DNA of 64,000 nucleotides from Pelomonas cellulosilytica (GTDB taxonomy: Bacteria > Pseudomonadota > Gammaproteobacteria > Burkholderiales > Burkholderiaceae_C): the NCBI RefSeq assembly GCF_021353265.1, contig NZ_JAJTWU010000003.1, positions 186,001 through 250,000 of the forward strand. The letters are read 5' to 3'. Under the pieces are notes generated by a model that searched no databases, was not told where the DNA came from, and worked only from the letters and a program-made list of their open reading frames with translations. Positions 48,504-64,000 of this stretch are shown in pieces. How positions within the stretch are numbered: position 1 is the first letter of the stretch; every line of letters begins with the position of its first letter. The position numbers and the translations under genes are program-made.

Positions 48504-50222
48504 CTAGAACAAGAAATACCTCTGCGCCATCGGCAACTCCTTCGCCGGCTCGCAGGTCAGCAGCACGCCGTCCGCCCTCACCTCGTACGTCTGCGCGTCG
48601 ATCTCCATCGTCGGCAGGTAGTTGTTGTGCACCATGTCGGCCTTCTTGACCGAGCGGCAGCCGTGCACCGGCACCAGCGTCTTGGTCAGGCCAAGCTTCT
48701 CGGCGTGCGCCTTGCCGGACTGGCTGACAAAGGTCAGCGAGCCCTGTGACAGCGCGCCGCCGAAGGCCCCGAACATCGGCCGGTAGTGCACCGGCTGCGG
48801 CGTGGGGATGGACGCATTCGCGTCGCCCATCGCAGCGGCAGCGATGAAGCCGCCCTTGAGGATGAGCGACGGCTTCACGCCGAAGAAGGCGGGCTTCCAC
48901 AAAACGAGGTCGGCCCACTTGCCGACCTCGATGCTGCCGACCTCGTGGCTGATGCCGTGGGCCAGCGCGGGGTTGATGGCGAGCTTGGCGAGGTAGCGCT
49001 TCACGCGGGCGTTGTCGTTGCCGGCGCCGTCGCCGGGCAGCGCACCGCGCTGCACCTTCATCTTGTGTGCGGTCTGCCAGCAACGCAGGCTCACTTCACC
49101 CACGCGGCCCATGGCCTGCGAGTCGGACGAGAACATGCTGATGGCACCCAGGTCGTGCAGGATGTCTTCAGCAGCGATGGTCTCGCGGCGGATGCGGCTT
49201 TCGGCGAAGGCCAGGTCCTCGGCGATGCCGGCGTCCAGGTGGTGGCACACCATCAGCATGTCGAGGTGCTCGTCCAGCGTGTTGACGGTGAACGGCCGCG
49301 TAGGGTTGGTAGAACTGGGCAGCACGTTCGCTTCGCCCACCACCTTCATGATGTCCGGCGCATGGCCGCCGCCAGCGCCTTCGGTGTGGAAGCTGTGGAT
49401 GGTGCGGCCCTTGAAGGCGGCGATCGTGTCCTCCACGAAGCCGCTCTCGTTGAGCGTGTCGGTATGGATGGCGACCTGCGTGTCGGTCAGCTCAGCCACG
49501 CTGAGGCAGTTGTCGATGGCCGCCGGCGTCGTGCCCCAGTCCTCATGCAGCTTCAGGCCGATGGCGCCGGCGTCGATCTGCTGCATCAGAGCCGACGGCA
49601 AGCTGGCGTTGCCCTTGCCCATGAAGCCGAGGTTCATCGGAAAGGCGTCGGCCGCCTTCAGCATCGTCGCAATGTGGCTCGGGCCGGGCGTGCAGGTGGT
49701 GGCCAGCGTGCCGGTAGCGGGGCCGGTTCCGCCGCCGATCATCGTCGTCACGCCGCTCATCAGCGCCTCTTCGATCTGCTGCGGGCAGATGAAGTGGATG
49801 TGCGTATCGATGGCGCCGGGCGTCACGATGAAGCCCTCGCCCGCGATGATTTCGGTGCCGGGGCCGATGACGATGTTCACGCCCGGTTGCACGTCGGGGT
49901 TGCCGGCCTTGCCGATGGCGGCGATGCGGCAGCCGCGCAGGCCGATGTCGGCCTTGACGATGCCCCAGTGGTCGACGATGACGGCGTTGGTGATGACGGT
50001 GTCTACCGCGTCAGCGGCGCCCGGGCCATTCGGGCGCTGGGACTGGCCCATGCCATCGCGTACGGTCTTGCCGCCACCGAATTTCACCTCCTCGCCGTAG
50101 CCGCCCGCGGCCAGCGTGAAGTCTTTTTCGATCTCGATGACGAGGGCTGTATCTGCCAGGCGCAGCTTGTCGCCGACGGTGGGGCCGAGCATCTCGGCAT
50201 AGGCGCGACGGGAAATTTTCAT
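48504..50222 (-). CDS. ureC: urease alpha subunit UreC
   Basis: Catalytic subunit that hydrolyses urea to ammonia and carbamate at a dinuclear nickel site. 572 aa, full length. Active-site residues are present: the HIH pair (DTHIHFICP), the carbamylated Lys in GLKLHEDWG, His in [10 protein letters not shown] and [15 protein letters not shown], the flap Cys in MVCHHLD, and the Asp ligand in [10 protein letters not shown]. The ATG at 50220-50222 overlaps the ureB stop by 4 bp. The 3' 402 bp is duplicated at 46289-46690. Confidence 0.98.
48519..48920. repeat. 402-bp direct repeat, copy 2 (3' end of intact ureC)
   Basis: Partner of 46289-46690. It lies within the end of the functional ureC. Recombination between the two copies would delete the 370-aa gene and leave a ureC gene with only a few changed bases. 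Confidence 0.95.
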
Positions 50223-50720: not shown

Positions 50721-50800
50721 GAGCGGCTGCCATGCAACCGGCTTCGCCGGGCCGTCGACAGCGCCCCCCTTGAGGGGGCCGGCGCAGTCGGGACGGGCTG
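50721..50800. repeat. dispersed GC-rich repeat, copy 1
   Basis: Shares the order GCGGCTGCC, CCGGCTT-GCC, CAGCGCCCC, TTGAGGGGGCCGGCG with 53407-53490. The central CCCCTTGAGGGG-type segment is an inverted repeat. Both copies are intergenic, which suggests a REP/BIME-like family of the genome. Confidence 0.55.
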
Positions 50801-51175: not shown

Positions 51176-51754
51176 TCAAGGCTTGCAAGGCGAATGCCAA
51201 TCTTCCATCACCTCGGCCACCGCCGGCTTGCGGGCTGGCCCTGAGGGGCGCTTGGCCGGCGTGCCCAGCGCTATCCAGCCCAGCAGCGTTTCGCCAGGCC
51301 CGCAGAACGCCGCGGCGATCACCGGGTTGCGCACCTTGGCGCCGCTCAGCATCTTGCCGCCGAAGCCCAGCGCATGCGCGGCCGTCATGAACTGCGCGAT
51401 GGCCCCACCGACGGCCGCCCACTGTTCATGGGCCGGCACCTGTGGGTGGCCCAGGTCGATGCGAGCGACGACGGCCACCGTCACGGGTGGCTTCAGTGCA
51501 CGCTCGGCGTCCAGCGCGGCGCCCTCCTCGCCCTTGCCGGCCGCGCGCGCGGCACTGGCGAACAGCTCTGCCATTTGCGCCTTGGCATCGCCACGCACCA
51601 CCTTGAAGCGATAAGGCACCAATTCGGCGTGGTCCGGCGCACGCAGCGCGGCCTGCGCCATCAGCGCGAGTTGCGCATCGTCGGGCCCGGGCTCGGCGAG
51701 GTATTTGGGGCCGACGGAGTAGCGCGTCAGCAAGGCATCGATCGTCATCGTCAT
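51176..51754 (-). CDS. YdjA-like nitroreductase family protein
   Basis: 192-aa FMN-dependent oxidoreductase: MTMTIDALLTRYSVGPKYLAEPGPD start, LRAPDHAELVPYRFKVV, and AAHALGFGGKMLSG. The small size and wording match E. coli YdjA, which is encoded next to selD (selenophosphate synthetase) there. Here it ends the selenium operon. The ATG at 51752-51754 overlaps the permease stop by 4 bp, so it is translationally coupled with the transporter. The real substrate is unknown; reduction of a selenium compound is only a guess. Confidence 0.82.
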   Translation of the reverse strand: MTMTIDALLTRYSVGPKYLAEPGPDDAQLALMAQAALRAPDHAELVPYRFKVVRGDAKAQMAELFASAARAAGKGEEGAALDAERALKPPVTVAVVARIDLGHPQVPAHEQWAAVGGAIAQFMTAAHALGFGGKMLSGAKVRNPVIAAAFCGPGETLLGWIALGTPAKRPSGPARKPAVAEVMEDWHSPCKP

Positions 51755-53358
51755 TGCGTGAGGTGGCGCCGCAAGCGCCAAGACAGTGCATCCACCAGCG
51801 CCACCAGCGCCACCATGGCGATCAGCACCGTGCAGGCCTCGTGCATCTGGAACAGGCCCAGGTGGTAGCTCAGCATCTGGCCCAGTCCACCGGCGCCGAC
51901 GACGCCCATGATGCTCGCCGCGCGAATGTTGTTCTCCCAGCGGTAGAGCGTATAGCTGGCCAGCTGCGGCAGCGTCTGCGGCAGGGTGGCGAAGAGCCAC
52001 ACACGGGCCGCGCGGAGGCCGCGCTGGCGCAGCGCCAGGGCCGCGTCGGACGGTGCGTTTTCGAAGGCCTCAGCGAACAGCCGGCCCAGCACGCCGCTGG
52101 TGTGCAGCGCCAGCGCCAGCGTGCCGGGCAGCGGTCCCAGGCCGGCGAGGATCAGCAGCTGCACGGCCCACACGAGCTCCGGCACGCTGCGCAGCACGTT
52201 GAGCACGAAGCGCGCGGCTTCACGGGCCACGCCGGTGCCCGCCGCTGGCAAGGCCAGCAGCAGGCCGCCCAGGACGGCCAGCGCCGTGCCCAGCGCCGAC
52301 ATCGCCAGCGTCTCCAACAGCGCCCAGCCGGTCTTGGCCAGGAAGGGCGGCGCCATCTCGGGCGGGAAGAAGCTGGCGACGAAGCGGCCCATGCCGCCTA
52401 GAGCATCGGGGCCGAGGAAGGCAGCCCATTGCAAGTCCAGCGAGACGAAGCTGCACGCCACCAATGCGAGCAGGCCGAGCCCGACCGCGACGCTGCTGAA
52501 GCGCGGCCATGAGGCCGGTGAGGCCGCGCCGGCCTGCGCGGGCGCGACGTCCAGCTGGTTACGCAGCCAGCGGCTGAACGCGTCGCTGGCCATCACGAGC
52601 GCGATGAACACCAGCAGGATGGAACTCACCTCGGAGCCCGAGAACATCTTGGACGCACTGTCCAGCAGCTGCCCCAGCCCGCCGGCGCCGACGAAGCCCA
52701 GCACGACAGACGAGCGCACCGCGCACTCCCAGCGGTAGACCGTGTAGCTCAACAGCTCGGGCAGGCAGCTGGGCAGCGCGCCGAACAGCAGGGCCTGCAG
52801 CCGACTGCTGCCGCCGCGCAGCAGGGCTTGCGTGGGCGCGGGGTCGGCGCTTTCGAGAATCTCGGCGTAGACCTTGCCGAGCATGCCGCCGTAGGCTATG
52901 GCGATGGCCAGCACGCCGGACGTCGGCCCGAGGCCCACGACGCGCACGAACACCAGCGCCCAGACCAGCTCGGGGATGGACCGCAGACCCACCAGCACGG
53001 CGCGTACCGCGCGGCGCAGCCAGCGCGCCGGGCCCGGCCGGCCTTCCAGCGTGCTGGCCGACAGACGCGACGTGGCCACCAGCGCCGCCGGCACCGCGAT
53101 GACCAGCGCCAGTGCCATACCGGCCGTGGCAATGGCCACCGTGCGCCAGGTCTCGTGCGCAAGCTCGGCCAGGAAGCCGGCGTCCATGCGCGGCGGGAAG
53201 AATTGCGCAAGGTAGCGACCCGTCACCTGCAGCGCACGCTCGTCGAACAGCGTCCACGGCTTGAACTCGGCCAGCACGAGCATCGGCCAAGCCAGCACGA
53301 GGGCGACCAGCAAGGCTAGTGTGCGCCGTGCACGCGCCGGATCTTGCATTGCGTTCAT
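51751..53358 (-). CDS. fused tandem ABC permease, PhnE type (putative selenate/phosphonate)
   Basis: 535 aa with two consecutive PhnE-like permease domains. Each has about six helices and an EAA-like loop: residues about 50-260 contain RSIPELVWALVFVR and SSVVLGFVGAGGLGQLL; residues about 320-530 contain RSVPELVWAVQLLILAG and RAASIMGVVGAGGLGQML. Usually two copies of one PhnE form the pore; here one chain supplies both. The ATG at 53356-53358 precedes the first helix. Partners are the ATPase and binding protein upstream. Confidence 0.88.
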   Translation of the reverse strand: MNAMQDPARARRTLALLVALVLAWPMLVLAEFKPWTLFDERALQVTGRYLAQFFPPRMDAGFLAELAHETWRTVAIATAGMALALVIAVPAALVATSRLSASTLEGRPGPARWLRRAVRAVLVGLRSIPELVWALVFVRVVGLGPTSGVLAIAIAYGGMLGKVYAEILESADPAPTQALLRGGSSRLQALLFGALPSCLPELLSYTVYRWECAVRSSVVLGFVGAGGLGQLLDSASKMFSGSEVSSILLVFIALVMASDAFSRWLRNQLDVAPAQAGAASPASWPRFSSVAVGLGLLALVACSFVSLDLQWAAFLGPDALGGMGRFVASFFPPEMAPPFLAKTGWALLETLAMSALGTALAVLGGLLLALPAAGTGVAREAARFVLNVLRSVPELVWAVQLLILAGLGPLPGTLALALHTSGVLGRLFAEAFENAPSDAALALRQRGLRAARVWLFATLPQTLPQLASYTLYRWENNIRAASIMGVVGAGGLGQMLSYHLGLFQMHEACTVLIAMVALVALVDALSWRLRRHLTQ

Positions 53359-53406
53359 GCCTGGCACCGCACGAACAGTGGAGCGCGAGGCGCAGCGCGG
53401 ACCATC

Positions 53407-53490
53407 GAGCGGCTGCCGGGGATCCGGCTTTGCCTGCCCACCAGCAGCGCCCCTTCGAGGGGGCCGGCGAAGCCGGTCGGGGGTGGACTC
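53407..53490. repeat. dispersed GC-rich repeat, copy 2
   Basis: Second copy of the repeat at 50721-50800, in the 133-bp gap between permease and ATPase genes. The core CCCCTTCGAGGGGG is palindromic and could act as an mRNA stabiliser or attenuator within the operon. Confidence 0.55.
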
Positions 53491-53491
53491 A

Positions 53492-54298
53492 TCACCTGCA
53501 CATGGCCTGGGGCAGAGGGACGGGCTGCGGCAGCGGCGCCACCTCGGGTGGCGCATCGTGCTGGCTGCGGTAGAGCTCGTCCAGCAGGTCGCCGTCGATG
53601 CCGGTCGGCGCGCCGTCGTAGACGACGCGCCCCGCCCGCAGCGCGATGACGCGGGGGAAATGCTTCAGCGCCAGGTCCACCTGATGCAGGCTGCAGACCA
53701 AGGCCGCACCCCGTTCCTGCGCGTTGCGCTGCAGTGCCGCAAGCGCCCGTTCGGCGCGCGTCGGGTCCAGCGCGGCCAGCGGCTCGTCGGCCAACCACAG
53801 CCGCGCCTCGGACACCAGCAGCCGCGCCAGGCCCACGCGCTGGCGTTCTCCGCCAGACAGGCGGTCCACGCGCAGCCACAGCTTGTCGGGCAGGTCCAGC
53901 TGCTCCAACGCGGCCTGGGCCAGCGGCGCATCGGGCGGGCTCCACAGAGTGCGCAGGCTGCGGGCCAGCGACATGCCCGGCAGCCGCGCCGCCAGCACCG
54001 CGACGGCCACGCGCTGGCGCGGCGGCAGCGGCGGTTGCTGCGGCGCCAGTGCCAGCGTGGCGCGCAGCCGCTGGCGCTCGCGGCGCTGCAGCGCCCACGG
54101 ATCGCGTCCGTCGAGCTGGAGGCGGCCGGCCAGCGGCGCCTGCATCAATGCCAGCGCACTGAGCAACGTTGTCTTGCCGGCGCCCGACGCACCAATCAAG
54201 GCGACTTGCTCACCCGCGGCGAGCGCAAGGCCCACGCCGCGCAGCACGGGCATCGTTCCACCCAGCGCCGCGGCATCGATGCCGTCGAGTGCGATCAC
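53492..54298 (-). CDS. ABC transporter ATP-binding protein, PhnC type
   Basis: 268 aa. Walker A GASGAGKTTLL, signature LSGGERQRVGLARLL, Walker B LWLADEPLAALDP, and the switch His in VCSLHQVDLAL. The domain order matches PhnC/PtxA-type ATPases. The ATG overlaps the binding-protein stop by 4 bp, and a repeat separates it from the permease gene. Confidence 0.92.
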   Translation of the reverse strand: MIALDGIDAAALGGTMPVLRGVGLALAAGEQVALIGASGAGKTTLLSALALMQAPLAGRLQLDGRDPWALQRRERQRLRATLALAPQQPPLPPRQRVAVAVLAARLPGMSLARSLRTLWSPPDAPLAQAALEQLDLPDKLWLRVDRLSGGERQRVGLARLLVSEARLWLADEPLAALDPTRAERALAALQRNAQERGAALVCSLHQVDLALKHFPRVIALRAGRVVYDGAPTGIDGDLLDELYRSQHDAPPEVAPLPQPVPLPQAMCR

Positions 54299-55170
54299 TT
54301 CAGCAGGCCAGCGTTCTCGGCAGCGGCCTTGATGCCGGTGTAGTTCTCGGGCTTGGTCGGGATGAATTTCGTCGCGCGCTGCAGGCCCAGGATCTCCTTG
54401 CCTTGCGGCGTGTTCGGGTCCAGCGCCAGGAAGGCGGCCTTGATCTTGTCCTGCAGCGCCTGCGGCATGTCGGCATGGACGGACCAGTTGTAGTCGAAGT
54501 AGGCAGGCGTCGTATAGAAGACCTTGACCTGGTTCGTATCCACCTTCTTGTCGGCGACGAACTTCTCCCAGACCGAGATGTTCAGCGCGCCGGCGTCGAC
54601 CTTGCCGCTGGCCACGGCGGCGATGGTCGCGTCATGCGCGCCGCTGAAGGCCACGCGCTTGAGGTCCACGTCGGGGTTGATCTTGGCAGCCAGCAGGTAG
54701 CTACGCGGCATCAGGTGGCCCGAGGTGCTGCTCTGCGAGCCGAAGGACAGCGTCTTGCCCTTGAGGTCTTCGAGCTTGTGGATGCCGCTCTTGGCGTCGG
54801 TGATGAAGACGGAGCGGAACTTCTCATCCTCCTCGCGCTGCACCAGCGGCACGATCTTGCCGTTGCTGCGCACGCTGGCCTGCACGAACGTGAAGCCGCC
54901 GAACCAGGCCAGGTCGATCTTCTTGTTGACGACGGTCTCCACCGCAGCGGCGTAGTCCGTCACCGGCGTCCACTCGACCTTCATGCCGAGCTTGCTTTCC
55001 AGGTACTGGCCCAGCGGCGCGAACTTGCGCGCCAGCTCGGTCGGCGACTCGTCGGGTATCGCGGTCACGCGCAGCACCTGCTGCTGCGCGTGCGCTGCGG
55101 CACCGGCGAACGCCAGCATGGCCAACAGGCCGCGCGCCACACGGGCGACGAAACGGGGGAAGGGAGTCAT
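54295..55170 (-). CDS. periplasmic binding protein, PhnD type (putative selenate-binding)
   Basis: 291 aa with a signal peptide (ends AHAQ). PhnD-like fold: LRVTAIPDESPTELARKFAPLG, MKVEWTPVTDYAAAVETVVN, IDLAWFGGFTFVQA and GSQSSTSGHLMPRSYLL. Proteins with this N-terminal wording are, as I recall, annotated as putative selenate ABC transporter substrate-binding proteins (a PhnD subfamily), rather than phosphonate binders. Its place after selC supports a selenium oxyanion, but phosphonate or phosphite cannot be excluded. The ATG at 55168-55170 starts the signal peptide. Confidence 0.85.
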   Translation of the reverse strand: MTPFPRFVARVARGLLAMLAFAGAAAHAQQQVLRVTAIPDESPTELARKFAPLGQYLESKLGMKVEWTPVTDYAAAVETVVNKKIDLAWFGGFTFVQASVRSNGKIVPLVQREEDEKFRSVFITDAKSGIHKLEDLKGKTLSFGSQSSTSGHLMPRSYLLAAKINPDVDLKRVAFSGAHDATIAAVASGKVDAGALNISVWEKFVADKKVDTNQVKVFYTTPAYFDYNWSVHADMPQALQDKIKAAFLALDPNTPQGKEILGLQRATKFIPTKPENYTGIKAAAENAGLLK

Positions 55171-55392
55171 CGTGGGTCTCCAGTTGAAGGGCGAGGTGGT
55201 GTTGCAGCGCGTGCCAGGCGCTGCATGTGCCTGACGGGTTGGGCATTCAGTCGACGCCAAGAACGGCCGGCCACAAGCGTGGGATCGCCGTCGCGAGCGG
55301 GCTCAGGTCGGTTCGAGCACCGCAGCCGTACTCTGATACGGCGAGGAGCACTGGGCCGAGATGAGCCCGTGCAGCAGGCGAGCCCATGCCAG

Positions 55393-55488
55393 TGGCGGAG
55401 GGGCGTGGGAGTCGAACCCACCCGGCAATGCGTGGCATCACCCACCGGGTTTGAAGCCCGGCCGACACACCGGTGTCGTTGCCCCTCC
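55393..55488 (-). tRNA. selC: selenocysteine tRNA (anticodon UCA)
   Basis: 96 nt including the encoded CCA end. Acceptor stem of 8 bp (GGAGGGGC / GCCCCTCC), a long 6-bp D stem (CGACAC / GTGTCG, loop CGGT), anticodon arm CCGGG-CTTCAAA-CCCGG with anticodon TCA, an 8-bp variable stem (GGTGATGC / GCATTGCC), and T arm GTGGG / CCCAC with TTCGACT. This 8+5 shape is unique to bacterial tRNA-Sec. It lies 7 bp after selB on the same strand, so it is probably cut from the operon transcript. Confidence 0.97.
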
Positions 55489-55495
55489 AGGGTGT

Positions 55496-57361
55496 TCATG
55501 CGGCCGGCCCCGCGAAGAGCGCACTGTCGGTGCGCAGCCGGTGTTCGTCGCCGACGCGGCGCAACAGGCCGACGCGGTCGAAGTGTTCCAGATGTTGGAT
55601 AGCGCGCTTGCGGCCCAGACCCGTGGCGTCGCGGAACGCAGCCGCCGTCACATTGCCGTGCTCGACGTGGATGGCGCGCGCGAGGCCAGCCAGCCGCGTC
55701 ATCGTCGCAGTGTCGCAGTACAGGTCCTTCACGACCTGGTGCAGCTCGCCCTGGCGCGCGAGACGGGCCAGCGTGGCGCGCATCAGCGGCTCGGGCTCGC
55801 CGCAGTCCTTGGCGAGGTCGCGTGCCCAGGCGCCCTCGGCGCCGGCCTCGGCCAGGCGCGGCGCCACCTTCTGCGCAATGCGTTGCTCCACGGCGGACAG
55901 CTGCACGCCGTGCTCCGGCAGGTGCACGAAGGCGCCGCGCACGGCGACGCGGCCGGTGGCGCGCAGATCGCCCAGCACGTCGCGCCACAGCGGCTCGGCC
56001 ATGCGGGGCGCGACAAGGCGGCGCAGCCGGGCTGCATCGGGCCCGAGTTCGTCCGGCGACCTGGCGTGGAACTCGGCCAGCGCGGCCAGCAGCCGTTCGG
56101 CCAGCGCAGCGCTGGCGGCCTCGCCCAGCGCCCAGCCCTGCAGCGGCTCGGTCAGCCCCTCGGCCTGCGCGAAGCGAGCCAGATCCAGCCCCAGCCGGCA
56201 CAGGCCCAGCAGGCGCTCGCGGCGGCGCGCGGCAGTAGGCAGCTCGCAGGCGGCCAGCTCGTCCAGGCGTTCCGGCGTGCGGCGGTAGCGCGCCGGCGCG
56301 AACGGGTCCAGCACAAGGCCGCCGGCCAGCGTGCGCGTGGCGCCGGCATCGCGCAGCACGAGACGGTCACCGCGCCAGGCGCCCACGGGAGCGTGGCAGA
56401 CCAGCTGGACGCGGCCCGAATCGCCGGGCTCGATCTGCTCGCCATCCAGCACCGCCACGCTGGCCGTGGTGCTCTGGGCGCCGAGGTGCAGGTGCACCCG
56501 CGTGCCCGAGCGCAGCGGCTTGGCCTCGCCCGCCCACAGGCGCAGGCGGGCGTCGAATCGGTCCGTGGCCAGCGCCACATGAGGCGCCGTCAGCCAGGCG
56601 CCGCGGGCTACCTCGTCCTTGGCAATACCCGCCAGCGCGACGGCACTGCGTTGACCGGCATGAGCACGCTCAACGACGCGGTTCTGCGCGTGCAGACTGC
56701 GCACACGGGCGGGGCGCCCTGACAACACCAGCTCGTCGCCCACAGCGATCTCGCCGGCATGAAGAGTGCCGGTGACGACGGTACCGACACCGTCGAGCGT
56801 GAAGGCGCGGTCCACCGCAAGCCGCGGCGCGAGGCCGTGGACATGGCGCGAAGGCAAATGACGCGCGGCGTCGAACAGCAGCTCACGCAGCTCATCGACC
56901 CCATGCCCGGCATGCGCCGAAACGACGAGGATGGGCGAGGCGTCCAGCCCCGTGCCGGCGAGCAACGCGCGCACCTCAGCCGTCAGCGCCTCGATGCGGC
57001 CGGGCTCGGCGCGGTCGGCCTTAGTGATGGCAACGGCGCCGTGCGTGACACCCAGCAGGCTCAGCACGGCCAGGTGCTCGCGGGTCTGCGGCATGACGCC
57101 ATCGTCGGCTGCGACGAGCAGCAGCGCGAAGTCGATGCCGCTGGCGCCGGCCAGCATCGTGTGGACGAGCTTCTCGTGGCCGGGCACGTCGATGAATCCC
57201 AGGCGCTCGCCATGACCCGGCACGTCCAGGTAGGCATAGCCCAGCTCGATGCTGATTCCACGCGCCTTTTCCTCGGGCAGGCGGTCGGTGTCGATGCCGG
57301 TCAGCGCACGCACGAGCGTGGTCTTGCCGTGATCGATGTGACCGGCGGTGCCGACGATCAT
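55496..57361 (-). CDS. selB: selenocysteine-specific elongation factor SelB
   Basis: Delivers Sec-tRNA to UGA codons by binding SECIS hairpins. 621 aa. N-terminal EF-Tu-like GTPase with GTAGHIDHGKTTLVRAL, DVPGHEK and TKAD; EF-Tu domains 2-3; then a C-terminal string of winged helices (DATGLGRKRAIQHLEHFDRVGLLRRVGDEH) that bind the SECIS. The ATG at 57359-57361 overlaps the selA stop by 4 bp. Full length for the family. Confidence 0.97.
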   Translation of the reverse strand: MIVGTAGHIDHGKTTLVRALTGIDTDRLPEEKARGISIELGYAYLDVPGHGERLGFIDVPGHEKLVHTMLAGASGIDFALLLVAADDGVMPQTREHLAVLSLLGVTHGAVAITKADRAEPGRIEALTAEVRALLAGTGLDASPILVVSAHAGHGVDELRELLFDAARHLPSRHVHGLAPRLAVDRAFTLDGVGTVVTGTLHAGEIAVGDELVLSGRPARVRSLHAQNRVVERAHAGQRSAVALAGIAKDEVARGAWLTAPHVALATDRFDARLRLWAGEAKPLRSGTRVHLHLGAQSTTASVAVLDGEQIEPGDSGRVQLVCHAPVGAWRGDRLVLRDAGATRTLAGGLVLDPFAPARYRRTPERLDELAACELPTAARRRERLLGLCRLGLDLARFAQAEGLTEPLQGWALGEAASAALAERLLAALAEFHARSPDELGPDAARLRRLVAPRMAEPLWRDVLGDLRATGRVAVRGAFVHLPEHGVQLSAVEQRIAQKVAPRLAEAGAEGAWARDLAKDCGEPEPLMRATLARLARQGELHQVVKDLYCDTATMTRLAGLARAIHVEHGNVTAAAFRDATGLGRKRAIQHLEHFDRVGLLRRVGDEHRLRTDSALFAGPAA

Positions 57362-58794
57362 GCGAGTGCGTCCTTCAAGGCCGGCAGTTGCGCGGTCAGC
57401 AGCGCCGGCTCTTCCAGGCATCGCAGATCCAGCAGAAGGCGTTGCTCGTTCAGCCGTCCGATGACGGGCCGCGGCAGCCCGCGCAGCGCGATGGCCAGCG
57501 CCTCCAGCGTGCGGCCTTTGCCATCCACGGGGTTGATGGCCAGGCCTGCGGACGGCAGGCGCTCGACCGGCAGCGAGCCGGAGCCGATCTGGCTCTGCAA
57601 CACGACCGTCTCGACCGTGAAGCGCGGCGCCAAGGCGGCGGCCATGTCGGGCAGCAGTCGCTGGGCCAGCGCGGCGATTTGCGCCTGCGACCGCGTCAGC
57701 AGCCGCAGCGTGGGCAGGTCCTGAACGAGCCGCTCGGGCCGCAGATACAGCCGCAGCGTGGCCTCCAGCGCGGCGAACGGCAGCTTGGACAGCCGCAGCG
57801 CGCGCTTCATCGGGAACTTGCGGATGCGGCCCACGGCCTCGCGGCTGCCGACGATGAGACCAGCCTGCGGGCCGCCCAGCAGCTTGTCGCCGCTGAACGT
57901 GACGACGTCGCAGCCGGCGGCCAGCATCTGCTGCGGCATCGGCTCGGCCGGCAGGCCCAGCGCGGCCATGTCCACCAGCGCACCGCTGCCGAGGTCGGTC
58001 ATCAGCGGCACGCCGGCACGGCGTGCGATGGGTGCCAGCGTCGCCTCGTCCACCGACGACGTGAAGCCCTGCACCTGGTAGTTGCTGGTGTGGACCTTGA
58101 CGATGAGGCCGGTGCGCGGCGTGAGGGCCTGCTCATAGTCACGCGGGTGCGTGCGGTTGGTCGTGCCCACCTCCACGAGCGTGGCGCCGGCCGCGCTCAT
58201 CACGTCCGGCATGCGGAAGGCGCCGCCGATCTCCACCAGCTCGCCGCGCGACACGATGGCTTCCCGCCCACGCGCCAGCGCCGCGATGCCCAGCAGCACG
58301 GCGGCGGCGTTGTTGTTAACGACGGTCGCCGCCTCGGCGCCGGTCAGCTCGCACAGCAGGTCTTCGATGAGGTCGTCACGGTCGCCGCGGCCTCCGGTGT
58401 CGAGGTCGAACTCGAGGTTGTTGGGTGAGCCGGTCAGCGCCAGCACCTGCTGCAACGCCGCGTCGGCCAGCAGCGAGCGGCCGAGGTTGGTGTGGATGAC
58501 GGTGCCCGTCAGGTTGAGCACCGCGCGCATGGCCGGCTGCATGCGCGCCTGCACGCGGGTCGCCAGCGTTCGCGCCAGACCACTCAGCTCGGCACGAAGC
58601 AGCTCGCCGGCCACGGCGCGGCTGCGCAGCGCGTCCAGCAGCGCCCTCGCCTCGCGCGCGACCAGCGTATGACCGTGCTCGATCACCAGCGGCGCGCAAT
58701 CGCGCAGCAGCTTGTCGAGCGCTGGCAGTTCCTTGGGGGCCGCTTTGTCGGGGGCCTTGGAACCGTGGACCACGGATTCGTCGGGCGCCGTCAT
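57358..58794 (-). CDS. selA: L-seryl-tRNA(Sec) selenium transferase SelA
   Basis: PLP enzyme that turns Ser-tRNA-Sec to Sec-tRNA-Sec with selenophosphate. 478 aa. The PLP lysine is in VTFSGDKLLGGPQAGLIVG (about residue 300); other motifs are VLNLTGTVIHTNLGRSLL, ATVVNNNAAAVLL and KVHTSNYQVQGF. The ATG overlaps the fdhE stop by one base (TGATG). Needs selenophosphate from SelD, which is not in the window. Confidence 0.98.
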   Translation of the reverse strand: MTAPDESVVHGSKAPDKAAPKELPALDKLLRDCAPLVIEHGHTLVAREARALLDALRSRAVAGELLRAELSGLARTLATRVQARMQPAMRAVLNLTGTVIHTNLGRSLLADAALQQVLALTGSPNNLEFDLDTGGRGDRDDLIEDLLCELTGAEAATVVNNNAAAVLLGIAALARGREAIVSRGELVEIGGAFRMPDVMSAAGATLVEVGTTNRTHPRDYEQALTPRTGLIVKVHTSNYQVQGFTSSVDEATLAPIARRAGVPLMTDLGSGALVDMAALGLPAEPMPQQMLAAGCDVVTFSGDKLLGGPQAGLIVGSREAVGRIRKFPMKRALRLSKLPFAALEATLRLYLRPERLVQDLPTLRLLTRSQAQIAALAQRLLPDMAAALAPRFTVETVVLQSQIGSGSLPVERLPSAGLAINPVDGKGRTLEALAIALRGLPRPVIGRLNEQRLLLDLRCLEEPALLTAQLPALKDALA

Positions 58795-59804
58795 CAGTGG
58801 GCCTGTCCGGGCGGTGGCGACTCGTCAGGGTCGCCGAACAGCAGCAGCAGGTTGACGCCGTGGCGTTGCAGGCCACCGCCTTCCTCAGGGTCACTGACGA
58901 GCAGGTCAAGCGTCACGGTGGCGAGGTCGTCGGCGACCGGCTCTGCGCCGTTGTCGCGCGCAGGGTGCAGCAGCTTGAGGTAGTGGCCGCATTCGCTGCA
59001 GCACTCGGCCTGCACAACGGCGTCGGTCGTCGTGCCCGCGCCGTCGTTGGCCGCGACCAGGCTTTGCAGCGAGATGCCCTTAGTGCCTTGGCAGTGCGTG
59101 CACTTCACGCGCACGTAGTGCCACTGCGTAGCGCACAGGCCGCAGGCGAGGTAGCGCGCGCCGTCGGCGCCCAGCCGCTCGATGGACGCCACCGGCCGCG
59201 AGCCGCAGCAGGGGCACAACGTCGCGTCGTCGATGCGGCCGAACGGCGCGACGGGGCCGTCGGCATGAGCGGCAGCCGTCTGCCGCACGAGCCGCACGAA
59301 ATGCAGCTGCAGGCCGGCTGCGATGAGTGGCGCGGTGGCGAGGTCCAGCCCGAACATGGCACCGGACAGCAGGCGGCCGGCCTGGGTGTCCAGGTGGTCG
59401 TCGCTGGCGGCGGCGAGTTGCAGCGCCGCCGACCTGGCCGGGCCGTCGGCGAGGTGACGGGCCAGATCAGCCAGCAGCGTGCGCAGCGACTCGCGCCACA
59501 CCGCACCGCGCGGCCAGCGGTCGGCCGGCAGCAACGGCAGCCCATCGCGGGCGGCGGCTTCGATCTGTTCCGCAGTGGGCAGCGGCACGGGGACGCCGGC
59601 GACCAGCGCGCTGTGCTGGGCGTCGGCCAGCTCGGCGATGAAGCGCAGGAAGTCGCCCATTGCATGGCCCTCGGCCAGCGTGCGCAGGCGCAGCGCGCGC
59701 TCGGCGAACACGCCCGGTTCAGACAGGTGCAGGAAGCTGACCTGCTCGCCCGCGCGAACAGCGATCTCTTCGGGACTGAGGATCTTCTGGGGGCTGGCGG
59801 TCAT
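58794..59804 (-). CDS. fdhE: formate dehydrogenase maturation protein FdhE
   Basis: 336 aa cytoplasmic protein needed for active membrane formate dehydrogenases. The C-terminal part has rubredoxin-like metal sites: LCPCCGSRPVAS, CGLCATQWHYVRVKCTHCQG and CCSECGHYLKLL. The ATG at 59802-59804 overlaps the gamma-subunit stop by 4 bp. Bridges structural genes and selAB. Confidence 0.95.
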   Translation of the reverse strand: MTASPQKILSPEEIAVRAGEQVSFLHLSEPGVFAERALRLRTLAEGHAMGDFLRFIAELADAQHSALVAGVPVPLPTAEQIEAAARDGLPLLPADRWPRGAVWRESLRTLLADLARHLADGPARSAALQLAAASDDHLDTQAGRLLSGAMFGLDLATAPLIAAGLQLHFVRLVRQTAAAHADGPVAPFGRIDDATLCPCCGSRPVASIERLGADGARYLACGLCATQWHYVRVKCTHCQGTKGISLQSLVAANDGAGTTTDAVVQAECCSECGHYLKLLHPARDNGAEPVADDLATVTLDLLVSDPEEGGGLQRHGVNLLLLFGDPDESPPPGQAH

Positions 59805-60424
59805 TGCTTACCGGTCATCTCGCGGTGCCACAGTGCGTGATTCTGACGCGCCCAGCCTTCGGTGACCGTGCCGCGCGTCATCGCGCGGATGGTGCCCTTG
59901 ACCCAGATCGCGGCGTAAATGTGGATGATGACGCTGAAAATCAACGCCGTGGCCGAGGCCGCGTGCAGCAGCACGGCGATGCGCCGCAGCAGGATGGGGA
60001 AGGCATTGGCGAACCAGGGCTGCCAGAACATGAAGCCCGTCACCACCAGCACCAGCAGGCTCAGCGCCATGACCCAGAAGATGCCCTTCTGGCCAGCGTT
60101 GTAGCGGCCCACCGGCGGCATGCTCGCCTTGTCGCCGCGCAGCATGTCGGCGCTGTGCGCGACCCACTCGCGGTCGGCCTCGTTGAGCACGTTGTGACGC
60201 CACAGCCGCACGAACATGCCGATGAAGCTGGCCGCCATCAGCACGCCCATGAAGGGGTGCAGGATGCGGGCCCAGGTGCCGCCGCCGAACAACCCGCTCA
60301 GGAAGAACAAGCTGGGGTGGAAGAAGGCCAGGCCCGAAAGCCCGGCCCCCAGGAAGAAGAGCACGATCAACCAGTGGTTGGTGCGCTCGCTCGCGCTGTA
60401 GCGCAGCAGAAAGCGGGTGGCCAT
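59801..60424 (-). CDS. fdnI: formate dehydrogenase-N gamma subunit (cytochrome b556)
   Basis: 207 aa, four transmembrane helices. Begins RYSASERTNHWLIVLFFLGAGL and has HPFMGVLMAASF, GRYNAGQKGIFWVM and LLHAASATALIFSVIIHIYAA, with His residues that would bind two b hemes. Passes electrons from the beta subunit to quinone in the inner membrane. The ATG at 60422-60424 lies 12 bp after the beta stop. Confidence 0.95.
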   Translation of the reverse strand: MATRFLLRYSASERTNHWLIVLFFLGAGLSGLAFFHPSLFFLSGLFGGGTWARILHPFMGVLMAASFIGMFVRLWRHNVLNEADREWVAHSADMLRGDKASMPPVGRYNAGQKGIFWVMALSLLVLVVTGFMFWQPWFANAFPILLRRIAVLLHAASATALIFSVIIHIYAAIWVKGTIRAMTRGTVTEGWARQNHALWHREMTGKQ

Positions 60425-60436
60425 GGTGGGCTCCCT

Positions 60437-61351
60437 TCAGGCGGTGGGATGGTCAGCGTCGTCGCGGGCGAGGTTGCGATCCGACTTGGGATCGTCCGGG
60501 TCCTCGACAGGGCCGACGCGGGTGTAGTGGAAGAAACCGGCAATGGCCGCGCCGATCATGGCCGCCACAGCCAGCGGCTTGGCCGCGCCCTTCCAAAGCG
60601 AGACCAGTGGGCTGATCTTGGGCTCGGCGGGCAGGCCGTGATAGAGCTCGGGCTTGTCGGCATGCTGCAGCACGTAGACGACGTGCGTGCCGCCCACGCC
60701 GGGCGGGTCGTACACGCCCGCGTTGGCATAGCCGCGGTCCTTCAGATCGGTCACGCGCTCGGCGCCGTAGTCGAGCATGTCCTCCTTGGTGCCGAAGCGG
60801 ATCGCGCCCGTCGGGCAGGCTTTGGCGCAGGCCGGCTCCAGGCCCACGCCGACGCGGTCGGAGCACAGGCTGCACTTGTAGGCCTTGTTGTCAACCTTGC
60901 TCAGCCGTGGCACGTCGAAGGGGCAGCCCGTCACGCAGTTGCCGCAGCCGACGCAGTGCTCGGAGATGAAGTCCACGATGCCGTTCGTGTATTTGACGAT
61001 GGCGCCGGGGGCCGGGCAGCTCTTCAGGCAGCCCGGGTCCTCGCAGTGCATGCAGCCGTCCTTGCGGATCAGCCATTCCAGCTTGCCCTGCTCCACCTCC
61101 ACCTCAGAGTAGCGCATGACCGTCCAGCTCTGTGGCGTCAGGTCGCGCGGGTTGTCGTAGGTGCCGTGGTTCTCGCCGACTTCGTCACGCAAGTCGTTCC
61201 ACTGCATGCAGGCCACCTGACAGGCCTTGCAGCCGATGCAGGAGGACACGTCGATGAGCTTGGCGACCTCGGCGACGTGCCGACGCGCCTCGGGCGGCTG
61301 GGTGGTGGTGGCCGAGCGCTTGGCGATGTCGAGGGATTGGAGTGAGGACAT
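60437..61351 (-). CDS. fdxH: formate dehydrogenase-N beta subunit, four [4Fe-4S]
   Basis: 304 aa. Four ferredoxin-type cysteine motifs: [37 protein letters not shown] and CSLCSDRVG...CAKACP. A C-terminal helix ([20 protein letters not shown]) anchors it to the membrane. The ATG at 61349-61351, two bases after the fdnG stop, has GAGAAGG as ribosome-binding site; a TTG two codons upstream overlaps that stop and is less likely. Confidence 0.96.
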
Positions 61352-61353
61352 GG

Positions 61354-64000
61354 TCAAGCCTTCTCAAGGTTCACGGTGAAGCTCTTGAACTCGGGGGTCT
61401 GCGTGTTGGCGTCGCCCACGAAGGGGGTCAGTGTGTTCACGAGATAGCCCGGCTTGGCCACGCCGACAAAGCCCCAGTGGTTGGGCAGGCCGACCGTGTG
61501 CACGCGCTTGCCGTCCACGTCCAGCGACGCGATGCGCTTGGTCACGACGGCCACGGCCTTGATGAAGCCGCGGTTGCTGCTCACCTTGACCCAGTCGCCG
61601 TTCGCAATGCCCTTCTCCTTGGCCAGTTCCTCGCCGATCTCGACGAACTGCTGCGGCTGAACCACCGCCGACGTGAGCACGTTCTTTGTCCAGTAGTGGA
61701 AGTGCTCGGTCAGCCGGTAGCTGGTAGCGACGTACGGGAAGTCCTTGGGCTTGCCGAAGGCCTCCAGGTCACCCTTGAACACGCGCGCGGCCGGATTGCT
61801 CTTCGCCTTGGCATTGTTCGGGTGCATGGGGTTGACGGCCAGCGGTGACTCGAAGGGCTCGTAGTGCTCGGGCAGCGGGCCGTCCACCATGCCGCTGGGC
61901 GCGAACAGCCGGGCCACGCCCTCAGACGTCATGATGAAGGGCCGTACCGCGTCCGCGTCCGTCGGGTTGGCGTCGGGGCGGATGTCGGGTACGTCAGAGC
62001 CGCCCCATTTCTCGCCGTTCCAGGCCACCAGCTTGCGCTTGCCGTTCCAGGGCTTGCCGTTGGTGTCGCAGGACGCCGCGTTGTAGAGCACGCGGCGGTT
62101 GGCCGGCCAGGCCCAGGCCCAGTTCAGCGTCTGGCCGATGCCGTACGGGTCGCTGTTGTCGCGGCGGGCCATCTGGTTGCCGGCCTGTGTCCAGGCGCCG
62201 GCGTAGATCCAGCAGCCGGAGGACGTGCTGCCGTCGTCGCGCAGCAAGCCGAAGCCGCTGAGCTGCTCGCCCGCCTTGGCCAGGACCTTGGTCGGGTCCT
62301 TGGGGTCGGTCACGTCGGCCAGCGCCTTGCCGTTGTACTCCTTGGCCAGCTCTTCGGCCGAGGGGTTGGTTGGCTGCAGGTAGGGCCAGCTGAGATTGAC
62401 GATGGGGTCGGGGAAGGCGCCGCCCTCCTTCGCGTACAGCGCCCGCATGCGCGTGAACAGCTCGGCGACGATCTCCGGGTCGCCCTTGGCCTCGCCCGGG
62501 GGCTCGGCGCCCTTCCAGTGCCACTGCAGCCAGCGGCCGGAGTTCGTCAGCGAGCCGTCTTCCTCCGCGAAGCAGGTGCTGGGGAAGCGGAAGACCGTCG
62601 TCTTGATGTCCTCGCTCTTCACGTCGTGGTGCTCGCCGTGGTTCTTCCAGAACTCGGCGGTCTCGGTGTTGAGCGGGTCGATGATGACCAGGAACTTCAG
62701 CTTGCTGAGGCCGTCGACGATCTTCTTCTTGTTCGGGAAGCTGCCCACCGGGTTGAAGCCCTGGCAGATGTAGCCGTTGAGCTTGCCCTGGTTCATCAGC
62801 TCGAACGTCTGCAGCACGTCGTAAGCCTTGTCCCATTTCGGCAGGTAGTGGAAGGCCCAGTCGTTCTCGGCTGTCGCGGCCTTGCCCCACCAGGCCTTCT
62901 GCTGGCTCACGAAGAACTTCGGATAGTTCTGCCAGAAGCTCATCTGGCCTGGGCGCAGCGGTTTGAGCGCCCGGGTCTTGTAGTAGGTCTCCAGGTCCTG
63001 CTCGCTGTCGCGGGCCAGGCTCATATAGCCGGTCAACGACGTGGACAGCAGCCCCAGGTCGGTCAGGCCCTGGATGTTGCTGTGGCCGCGCAGCGCGTTC
63101 ATGCCGCCACCGGGCAGGCCGATGTTGCCCAGCAGCAGCTGCATGATCGCGCCGGTCCGGATGATCTGCGAGCCCTGGCTGTGCTGCGTCCAGCCGAGCG
63201 CGTACATGATCGTCATGACCTTGTTTGGCCGCGACGTCTCCGCAATCATTTCGCAGACCTTCAGGAACTTGTCCTGCGGCGTACCAGTGATCTTGCTGAC
63301 CTGCTCGGGCGTGTAGCGCGAATAGTGCGCCTTCATGATGTTGAGCACGCAGCGCGGATGCTCGAGCGTCGGGTCGACCTTGGCAAAGCCCTTGTCGTCC
63401 AGCTCGTAGCCCCAGCTCTTGTTGTCGTAGCGGCGCTTGGCCTCGTCGTAGCCGCTGAACAAGCCGTCCTGGAACTGGTAGGCCTCGCCGACGATGAAGC
63501 TGGCGTTGGTGTAGTTCTTGACGTACTCCGTCTGGATCTTGTTGTGCGTCAGCAGGTAGTTGATGACACCGCCCAGGAAGGCGATATCAGACCCCGCACG
63601 GATGGGCGCGTAGTAGTCGCTCATCGCGGCCGAGCGCGTGAAGCGCGGGTCCACGACGATGAGACGGGCCTTGTTGTGGTGCTTGGCTTCGATGACCCAC
63701 TTGAAACCGCAAGGGTGGGCCTCGGCGGCGTTGCCGCCCATGATGAGCACGAGGTCTGCGTTCTTGATGTCCACCCAGTGGTTGGTCATCGCGCCGCGGC
63801 CGAACGTCGGGGCCAGACTGGCCACCGTCGGGCCGTGTCAAACACGTGCCTGGTTGTCGAATGCAAGCATCCCCATCGAGCGCATCGCCTTGTGGGTGAT
63901 GTAGCCCGATTCGTTGGAAGAAGCGCTGGCGCACAGCATGCCGGTCGTGAGCCAGCGGTTGACGGGCTTGCCGTCGGCGTTGGTCGTCTGGAAGTTGGCG
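61354..64000 (-). CDS. fdnG: selenocysteine formate dehydrogenase-N alpha subunit, 5' end outside window
   Basis: Periplasmic catalytic subunit oxidising formate to CO2, with bis-MGD molybdenum and a [4Fe-4S] cluster. About 881 residues are visible. An in-frame TGA at 63838-63840 falls exactly at the Sec position of FdnG (DNQARV-Sec-HGPTVA), so the gene is not broken. Conserved [44 protein letters not shown] and [20 protein letters not shown] follow. The family is about 1015 aa, so about 140 residues, including the Tat signal, lie beyond the edge. Operon: fdnG-fdxH-fdnI-fdhE-selA-selB-selC. Confidence 0.97.
63801..63840 (-). promoter_or_regulatory. SECIS element and UGA(Sec) codon in fdnG
   Basis: The UGA is followed at once by a hairpin-forming stretch. 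The inner stem is GGCC / GGCC around an apical loop AGUCU (63815-63819); outer bases CCGA / UCGG also pair. Bacterial SECIS elements have this place (just 3' of UGA) and a loop with a GU pair, and E. coli fdnG has GGUCU there. SelB from this operon should bind it. Confidence 0.88.

Follow-up and report, generated by a model that had tools for sequence, protein, structure and literature searches.

The window analysed here, a 64,000-nucleotide stretch of Pelomonas cellulosilytica (contig NZ_JAJTWU010000003.1, positions 186,001 to 250,000), carries at 51176-64000 a cluster of selenium-related genes. Gene calls confirmed the proposal of the initial annotation that ten protein genes and selC lie together on one strand, the minus strand, in the order fdnG-fdnH-fdnI-fdhE-selA-selB-selC, followed by the genes for a substrate-binding protein (SBP), an ATPase and a permease of an ATP-binding cassette (ABC) importer and, finally, a nitroreductase. 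The features are as follows, with bit scores given against the cut-off of the model named.

61354..64000, minus strand: fdnG, selenocysteine (Sec)-containing formate dehydrogenase-N alpha subunit, with TGA read-through and its 5' end beyond the window
60437..61351, minus strand: fdnH, formate dehydrogenase beta subunit (TIGR01582, 449.7 versus 334.7 bits), ATG at 61351
59801..60424, minus strand: fdnI, formate dehydrogenase gamma subunit (TIGR01583, 173.9 versus 115.85)
58794..59804, minus strand: fdhE (TIGR01562, 219.7 versus 187.65)
57358..58794, minus strand: selA (TIGR00474, 560.2 versus 267.9)
55496..57361, minus strand: selB (TIGR00475, 439.6 versus 242.25), start at MIVGTAG
55393..55488, minus strand: selC, tRNA-Sec (ARAGORN; Rfam RF01852)
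54295..55170, minus strand: SBP of the predicted selenium-oxyanion ABC importer (TIGR04553; tree; AlphaFold2 model with a mean predicted local distance difference test score of 91.3)
53492..54298, minus strand: importer ATPase, PhnC-like but under the PhnC cut-off (TIGR02315, 186.8 versus 266.1; PF00005)
53359..53491, minus strand: 133-base gap between ATPase and permease genes, with a repeat-like stretch (second copy at 50721-50800)
51751..53358, minus strand: permease, two PhnE-type halves in a single chain (TIGR01097 in two stretches, 439.6 versus 216.7), start at 53358
51176..51754, minus strand: nitroreductase-family protein, distantly YdjA-like (PF00881; under the NF008088 cut-off)

The earlier statement that neighbouring genes overlap by 1-4 bases at most borders holds for five of the nine protein-gene borders (fdnI/fdhE, fdhE/selA, selA/selB, SBP/ATPase and permease/nitroreductase), whereas the other four are gaps of 2 bases (fdnG/fdnH), 12 bases (fdnH/fdnI) and 133 bases (ATPase/permease) and the selC-containing interval from selB to the SBP gene. 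Within this interval selC lies 7 bases from selB and is followed by 222 bases in which a scan for promoters and terminators gave no match. A single transcript from fdnG to selC is likely, while its extension beyond selC is unproven; because of the 222-base gap, the transporter part could be a separate transcription unit. The fdnG start was placed at position 64425, about 425 bases past the window end, by means of locus L034, in which the N-terminus and the UGA context are seen, and the homologue of this N-terminal piece in L084 matches TIGR01553. Four of 80 named relatives (L107, L108, L109 and L112, the first two with two additional genes between selC and the SBP gene) have homologues of all ten proteins in one cluster, and a fifth, L106, has all of them except the ATPase and the permease. 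On the basis of this recurrence, the grouping is not due to chance.

The in-frame UGA of fdnG (63838-63840, context NQARV-U-HGPTV) is covered by a selenocysteine insertion sequence (SECIS) element, SECIS_3 (Rfam RF01989), at 63785-63843 on the minus strand (85.7 bits against a gathering threshold of 63), and tRNA-Sec was found by both ARAGORN and Rfam, in agreement with the pathway of FdnG, SelA, SelB and selC that the initial annotation gave as known. The gene for SelD, which the initial annotation had marked for locating, was found on a contig other than that of the operon (G000:C26:87532-88458), with SelA on C23 and MnmH on C24. The Sec decoding set is thus complete (SelA, SelB, tRNA-Sec, SelD and an in-frame UGA with SECIS). 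A search of the same genome for SenB gave no match. Since selD and mnmH are both present, the genome seems to put selenium to use in Sec as well as in tRNA selenouridine.

The SBP belongs to the PhnD subfamily annotated as a putative selenate transporter, as suggested earlier: it scored 403.5 bits against TIGR04553 (curated cut-off 250) and failed the cut-off of the PhnD model TIGR03431 (179.3 versus 261.1 bits). TIGR04553 is an NCBI hypothetical equivalog, 'putative selenate ABC transporter substrate-binding protein', so that the name itself is a prediction; the family shares with the window importer the types of ATPase and permease partners and the selenium-gene context. In a tree of 55 rows, including PtxB and PhnD but not HtxB, AioX or ArrX, the SBP fell within a 39-row clade (support 100/100) apart from three PtxB proteins and E. 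coli PhnD, and the PtxB rows formed a separate 10-row clade (support 100/97) to which the SBP does not belong. L194, which is under the TIGR04553 cut-off (220 bits), sits on a long branch within the 39-row clade. Several more rows were flagged for long branches, but not the window SBP.

We then surveyed 399 genomes of the order, counting as carriers those that pass the TIGR04553 cut-off. There were 92 carriers and 108 genomes with SelA over its cut-off; 45 genomes had both, 47 the importer only, 63 SelA only and 244 neither (odds ratio 3.7, p 2.4e-7). SelD was present in 86 of the 92 carriers, and 89 had SelA, SenB or MnmH. Nearly all carriers with SelA had SelD (44 of 45), and so did 42 of the 47 carriers without SelA, compared to 22 of 33 controls (p 0.02; the first 33 in handle order among 53 genomes drawn randomly from the 244 with neither gene). 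SenB served as the marker for selenoneine, since the SenA model NF041186 did not separate cleanly, its matches beside the importer being under the cut-off in several genomes (for example G269, G354, G380, G298 and G394). SenB was found in 28 of the 47 carriers without SelA (24 over cut-off) versus 4 of the 33 controls (3 over; p 2e-5). MnmH, sought in the 19 carriers that have neither SelA nor SenB and in the window's own genome (20 genomes), was present in 16 of those 19. Beyond the order, 26 of 329 genomes of a phylum set carry the family, 20 of them from outside the order, and 18 of these 20 have SelD.

Physical linkage of the importer to selD, senAB, mnmH and selAB recurs. Among the 92 carriers, selD lies within 10 kilobases (kb) of the importer in 24, senB in 17 and mnmH in 3 (sought in 20 genomes), selA lies at most 15 kb away in 5, and at least one of the four within 15 kb in 29. 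For selD, a chance estimate (about 20 kb in 4 megabases per genome) predicts fewer than one case. As a control, we took 29 PhnD-family paralogues below the cut-off, among the matches listed, in 24 genomes in which the place of selD is known: none was linked, versus 29 of 92 carriers (p 1e-4; the G104 fragment, whose selD place is not known, was dropped, and mnmH places are known for few control genomes). Paralogues in G012, G251 and G272 instead have phnJ at 4.6-8.0 kb. A selenium gene lies within 10 kb in 50 of the 80 named relatives, three of them by sen matches alone (genes counted at at least 100 bits, some loci ending at contig ends), and SelD is nearby in 5 of the 20 carriers outside the order. 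On a Sphaerotilus sulfidivorans plasmid, mnmH, ATPase, permease, SBP and selD are contiguous, and in three of four Paracoccus plasmids fdn-fdhE-selAB is divergent from the importer. The Paracoccus importer is located on the opposite side of fdnG and on the opposite strand, and its SBP is on a distant branch of the tree, from which it follows that the link to Sec genes has either several origins or a long history of retention.

The adjacency to fdn genes, seen in the window as well as in relatives from Roseateles and in Paracoccus, along with a moeA-like gene in 3 of 40 neighbourhoods, would also be expected if the importer brought in another anion for formate dehydrogenase, such as molybdate or tungstate. 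We regard this as very improbable, as genomes that lack SelA show linkage of the importer to senB, mnmH and selD too; to our knowledge the uses marked by these three genes need selenium, and we know of no molybdenum need.

This context, i.e. the linkage to selD, senB, mnmH and selA and the presence of SelD in most carriers, supports a selenium role for the importer. In our preferred reading (probability of roughly 0.75), the cluster serves to make Sec together with a formate dehydrogenase that depends on it, and its ABC importer takes up a selenium oxyanion, most likely selenite; judging from gene neighbourhood and phylogeny, the importer is a strong candidate for a dedicated selenium transporter. 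It would bring the oxyanion into the cell, where, after reduction, the selenium would be converted to selenophosphate by the SelD encoded elsewhere; the nitroreductase may, as a guess, help to reduce the incoming selenium. Such uptake would presumably matter when selenium is scarce.

Several observations weigh against this interpretation. We came across no study that measured selenium binding or uptake for a TIGR04553 member. The association with SelA is moderate (SelA in 45 of 92 carriers, the importer in 45 of 108 SelA genomes), and SenB is not significantly more frequent in SelA genomes with the importer (30 of 45) than in those without it (16 of 35, p 0.07; the first 35 of the 63 in handle order). 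Six carriers lack SelD (G002, G159, G170, G195, G198 and G205); four of these assemblies are fragmented (210-680 contigs), whereas poor assembly accounts neither for G198, with 70 contigs at 98% completeness, nor for G205, a single-contig genome whose protein is divergent and has no ABC partner homologue nearby. Outside the order, SelD is missing from G537 (100% complete) and G646 (78% complete). No tested selenium gene lies within 15 kb in 63 of the 92 carriers (mnmH sought in 20 genomes only) or within 10 kb in 30 of the 80 named loci, and, among the neighbourhoods read for 40 of the 92 carriers, 14 of 20 with SelA and 12 of 20 without it have no selenium gene; the same holds for 4 of 8 annotated plasmid copies, one more plasmid record carrying no annotation. 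The pocket of the SBP and the in vitro ligands of proteins that share it, described below, count on the same side.

A strict tie of the importer to Sec synthesis was rejected, as the order's 92 carriers include 47 without SelA. With a moderate link to selA (odds ratio 3.7) but SelD in most carriers, and thus a strong association with selenium use overall, the importer looks, from these distributions, like a general selenium importer. The initial annotation had proposed that the transporter feeds selenium oxyanion to the Sec system: the importer role is well supported by tree and neighbourhood, but the specificity for Sec is not.

The nearest relatives of known structure point to another possible substrate. 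Marine picocyanobacterial PhnD1 proteins also exceed the TIGR04553 cut-off (338.3 and 302.4 bits), fall in the same clade as the SBP and provide the nearest solved structures (PDB 7S6G and 5LQ5), so that the tree, while separating the SBP from PtxB and E. coli PhnD, groups it with an in vitro phosphite binder. Indeed, the SBP equals Synechococcus PhnD1 at 11 of 11 pocket and cap residues (D11, Y44, T65, S123, S124, T125, S126, H156, N174, D203 and Y204). PtxB, HtxB, PhnD, AioX and ArrX have the same fold as the SBP, and the ten rows of the PtxB clade have the anion-gripping S-T-S and His in common with the SBP and PhnD1 but differ at the sites of PhnD1 T65, S123, N174 and D203. Proteins with the shared pocket bind phosphite and phosphate in vitro, with values of 0.67-4.3 µM for phosphite and 7.4-88 µM for phosphate in Synechococcus PhnD1 and of 0.05-0.12 µM for phosphite in Prochlorococcus PhnD1 (PMC10284923). 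The importer could therefore carry phosphite, phosphate or small phosphonates, as for PhnD1, with the sel adjacency an accident of genome history, and its PhnC/PhnE-like ATPase and permease would fit such a role. We nevertheless consider this quite unlikely, given the linkage to several kinds of selenium gene that the paralogues, among the matches listed, do not show, the position of PtxB and PhnD outside the SBP clade, and the absence of phnJ, encoding carbon-phosphorus lyase, from the window's own genome (it is present in 11 of the 80 carriers searched, out of 92, and near the below-cut-off paralogues mentioned above). In a passage of the report on PhnD1, moreover, the authors term the role of the system paradoxical, and they saw two strains fail to grow on phosphite or methylphosphonate; the ligands screened were phosphorus compounds and a general ligand set, and selenium is absent from the main text (PMC10284923). 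PhnD1, described as a phosphate importer gene adjoining tesA, occurs in every one of the 97 picocyanobacterial genomes in the Cyanorak database. A scan of viral contigs yielded no relatives.

The same pocket bears on the form of selenium that the importer would take up. The family name says selenate, and ArrX, a more distant relative, was solved with tetrahedral arsenate and sulfate, as might be expected if the protein were a selenium importer for selenate, a reading that overlaps with ours and differs only in the form imported. We hold selenate to be unlikely, as the pocket is equal to that of a phosphite-preferring protein and as a scan of ten recurrent neighbour clusters, the only part of the genomes searched in this respect, showed no selenate reductase. 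Because the pocket equals that of PhnD1, in which three oxygens are held, a tyrosine caps the fourth position and phosphite (XO3) is preferred to phosphate (XO4), selenite would be the better candidate for the window member.

PhnD1 may itself be a selenium importer. Tentatively, at somewhat below even odds, TIGR04553 could be the missing dedicated high-affinity bacterial importer, specific for selenite and serving Sec, selenouridine and selenoneine, with selenite as the real substrate of the PhnD1 members. If true, this would change the view of selenium uptake by abundant marine phototrophs and correct the substrate name in database annotation. The family model already exists and the window importer is a new member of this predicted family; new here are the counts across users of Sec, selenouridine and selenoneine and the link to PhnD1. 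The data provide one testable candidate family that is tied to three kinds of selenium use and linked to solved structures whose function has been described as paradoxical.

The remark in the initial annotation that a Sec-linked selenium importer has little experimental support stands, in that the open-access literature searched yielded no functional work on selenium importers of the PhnD type. The phrase 'putative selenate ABC transporter' occurs in a passage of PMC13077682, and E. coli is stated, in part of another article, to transport selenate by the sulfate system (PMC3781023). An earlier candidate selenium transporter, YedE, was likewise proposed from gene neighbourhood, but is, according to an excerpt of that study, a ten-helix membrane protein, possibly an exporter, rather than an ABC importer (PMC5322559). 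An ABC ATPase near orphan selD genes is named as a candidate in a section of PMC5029168. The words 'phnd' and 'phosphonate' are absent from the main texts of PMC5322559 and PMC9312934, as is 'phosphonate' from those of PMC5029168 and PMC2432076. In a methanogen, a portion of PMC11097638 reports, five selenium-regulated transporter loci were deleted and none was required.

The nitroreductase is a member of PF00881 (66.4 bits versus a gathering threshold of 23.5) and aligns with E. coli YdjA over 176 residues at 34% identity, but fails the YdjA model NF008088 (93.3 versus 183 bits, compared to 375.8 for E. coli YdjA), so that the earlier label 'YdjA-like' applies at the level of family and distant similarity. 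It accompanies the SBP gene in 10 of the 80 named loci and in the window: after the importer in the window and eight named relatives, after the SBP alone in L106 and just before it in L174 — the two-gene arrangement in L106 (9947-11575, Roseateles caseinilyticus) having SBP then nitroreductase directly, with no ATPase or permease at this place in a search limited to the locus. These eight relatives, L106 and L174 make up the ten loci, to which the window is to be added. By contrast, none of the 40 neighbourhoods in the order and none of the 20 in the phylum set has it beside the SBP gene; the nitroreductase thus tracks the importer within some Burkholderiales and not selenium use generally.

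The initial annotation had further noted that E. coli ydjA neighbours selD, and ydjA indeed lies 116 bases upstream of selD in ydjA-selD-topB, a single further case of a nitroreductase beside a selenium gene, although no importer gene is found there. If the nitroreductase were part of the transport system and handled selenium, such an adjacency would be expected, as would its retention beside the importer at four loci in which no sel gene was identified (L110, L111, L113 and L114) and beside the SBP gene in L106 and L174, which have no adjacent homologue of the ATPase or permease. We find such a role doubtful in view of the small number of loci that have the gene and of its score under the YdjA cut-off; of the earlier suggestion that it helps to reduce or handle selenium, the adjacency stands, while its absence from the 60 other neighbourhoods makes this the weak part of the proposal.

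Other features were seen in further genomes. In L250:8118-10400 (G652), two TIGR04553 SBP genes stand in tandem next to selD, along with a single ATPase gene and a single permease gene. In 20 of the 44 carriers that have both SelA and SelD (G012, G046, G131, G322 and others), selD contains an in-frame TGA, which suggests that SelD is probably a selenoprotein itself in those genomes. Long SelD frames (about 760-850 amino acids) occur near senB and the importer (L086:14262-16550, L094:13534-16041 and L232-L234) and resemble by length the cyanobacterial fusion to an NADH-dehydrogenase-like part (PMC1273633). In two separate genome groups, selC is followed by a glycine-cleavage-H-like gene (PF01597), accompanied in most cases by a DsrE-like gene (PF02635), at these sites:

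L107:8764-9956
L108:8826-9970
L076:73-1032
L083:3-796
L084:19393-19890

L111 and L114 also have a DsrE-like gene, in these cases ahead of the importer. The window, L034 and L035 gave no match to these two gene types. The two products may form a selenium or sulfur carrier pair.

Within the window, the repeat-like stretch of the ATPase/permease gap (53407-53485) is 77-78% identical to the copy after ureA (50721-50800). An Rfam 5_ureB_sRNA match (49766-50064, 114.9 bits, plus strand) lies opposite the urease alpha gene and possibly reflects conserved coding sequence only. In a relative of the window, L034, a gene for an Mrp/NUBPL-type iron-sulfur carrier NTPase (L034:6620-7714, minus strand) lies immediately upstream of fdnG in the same orientation.

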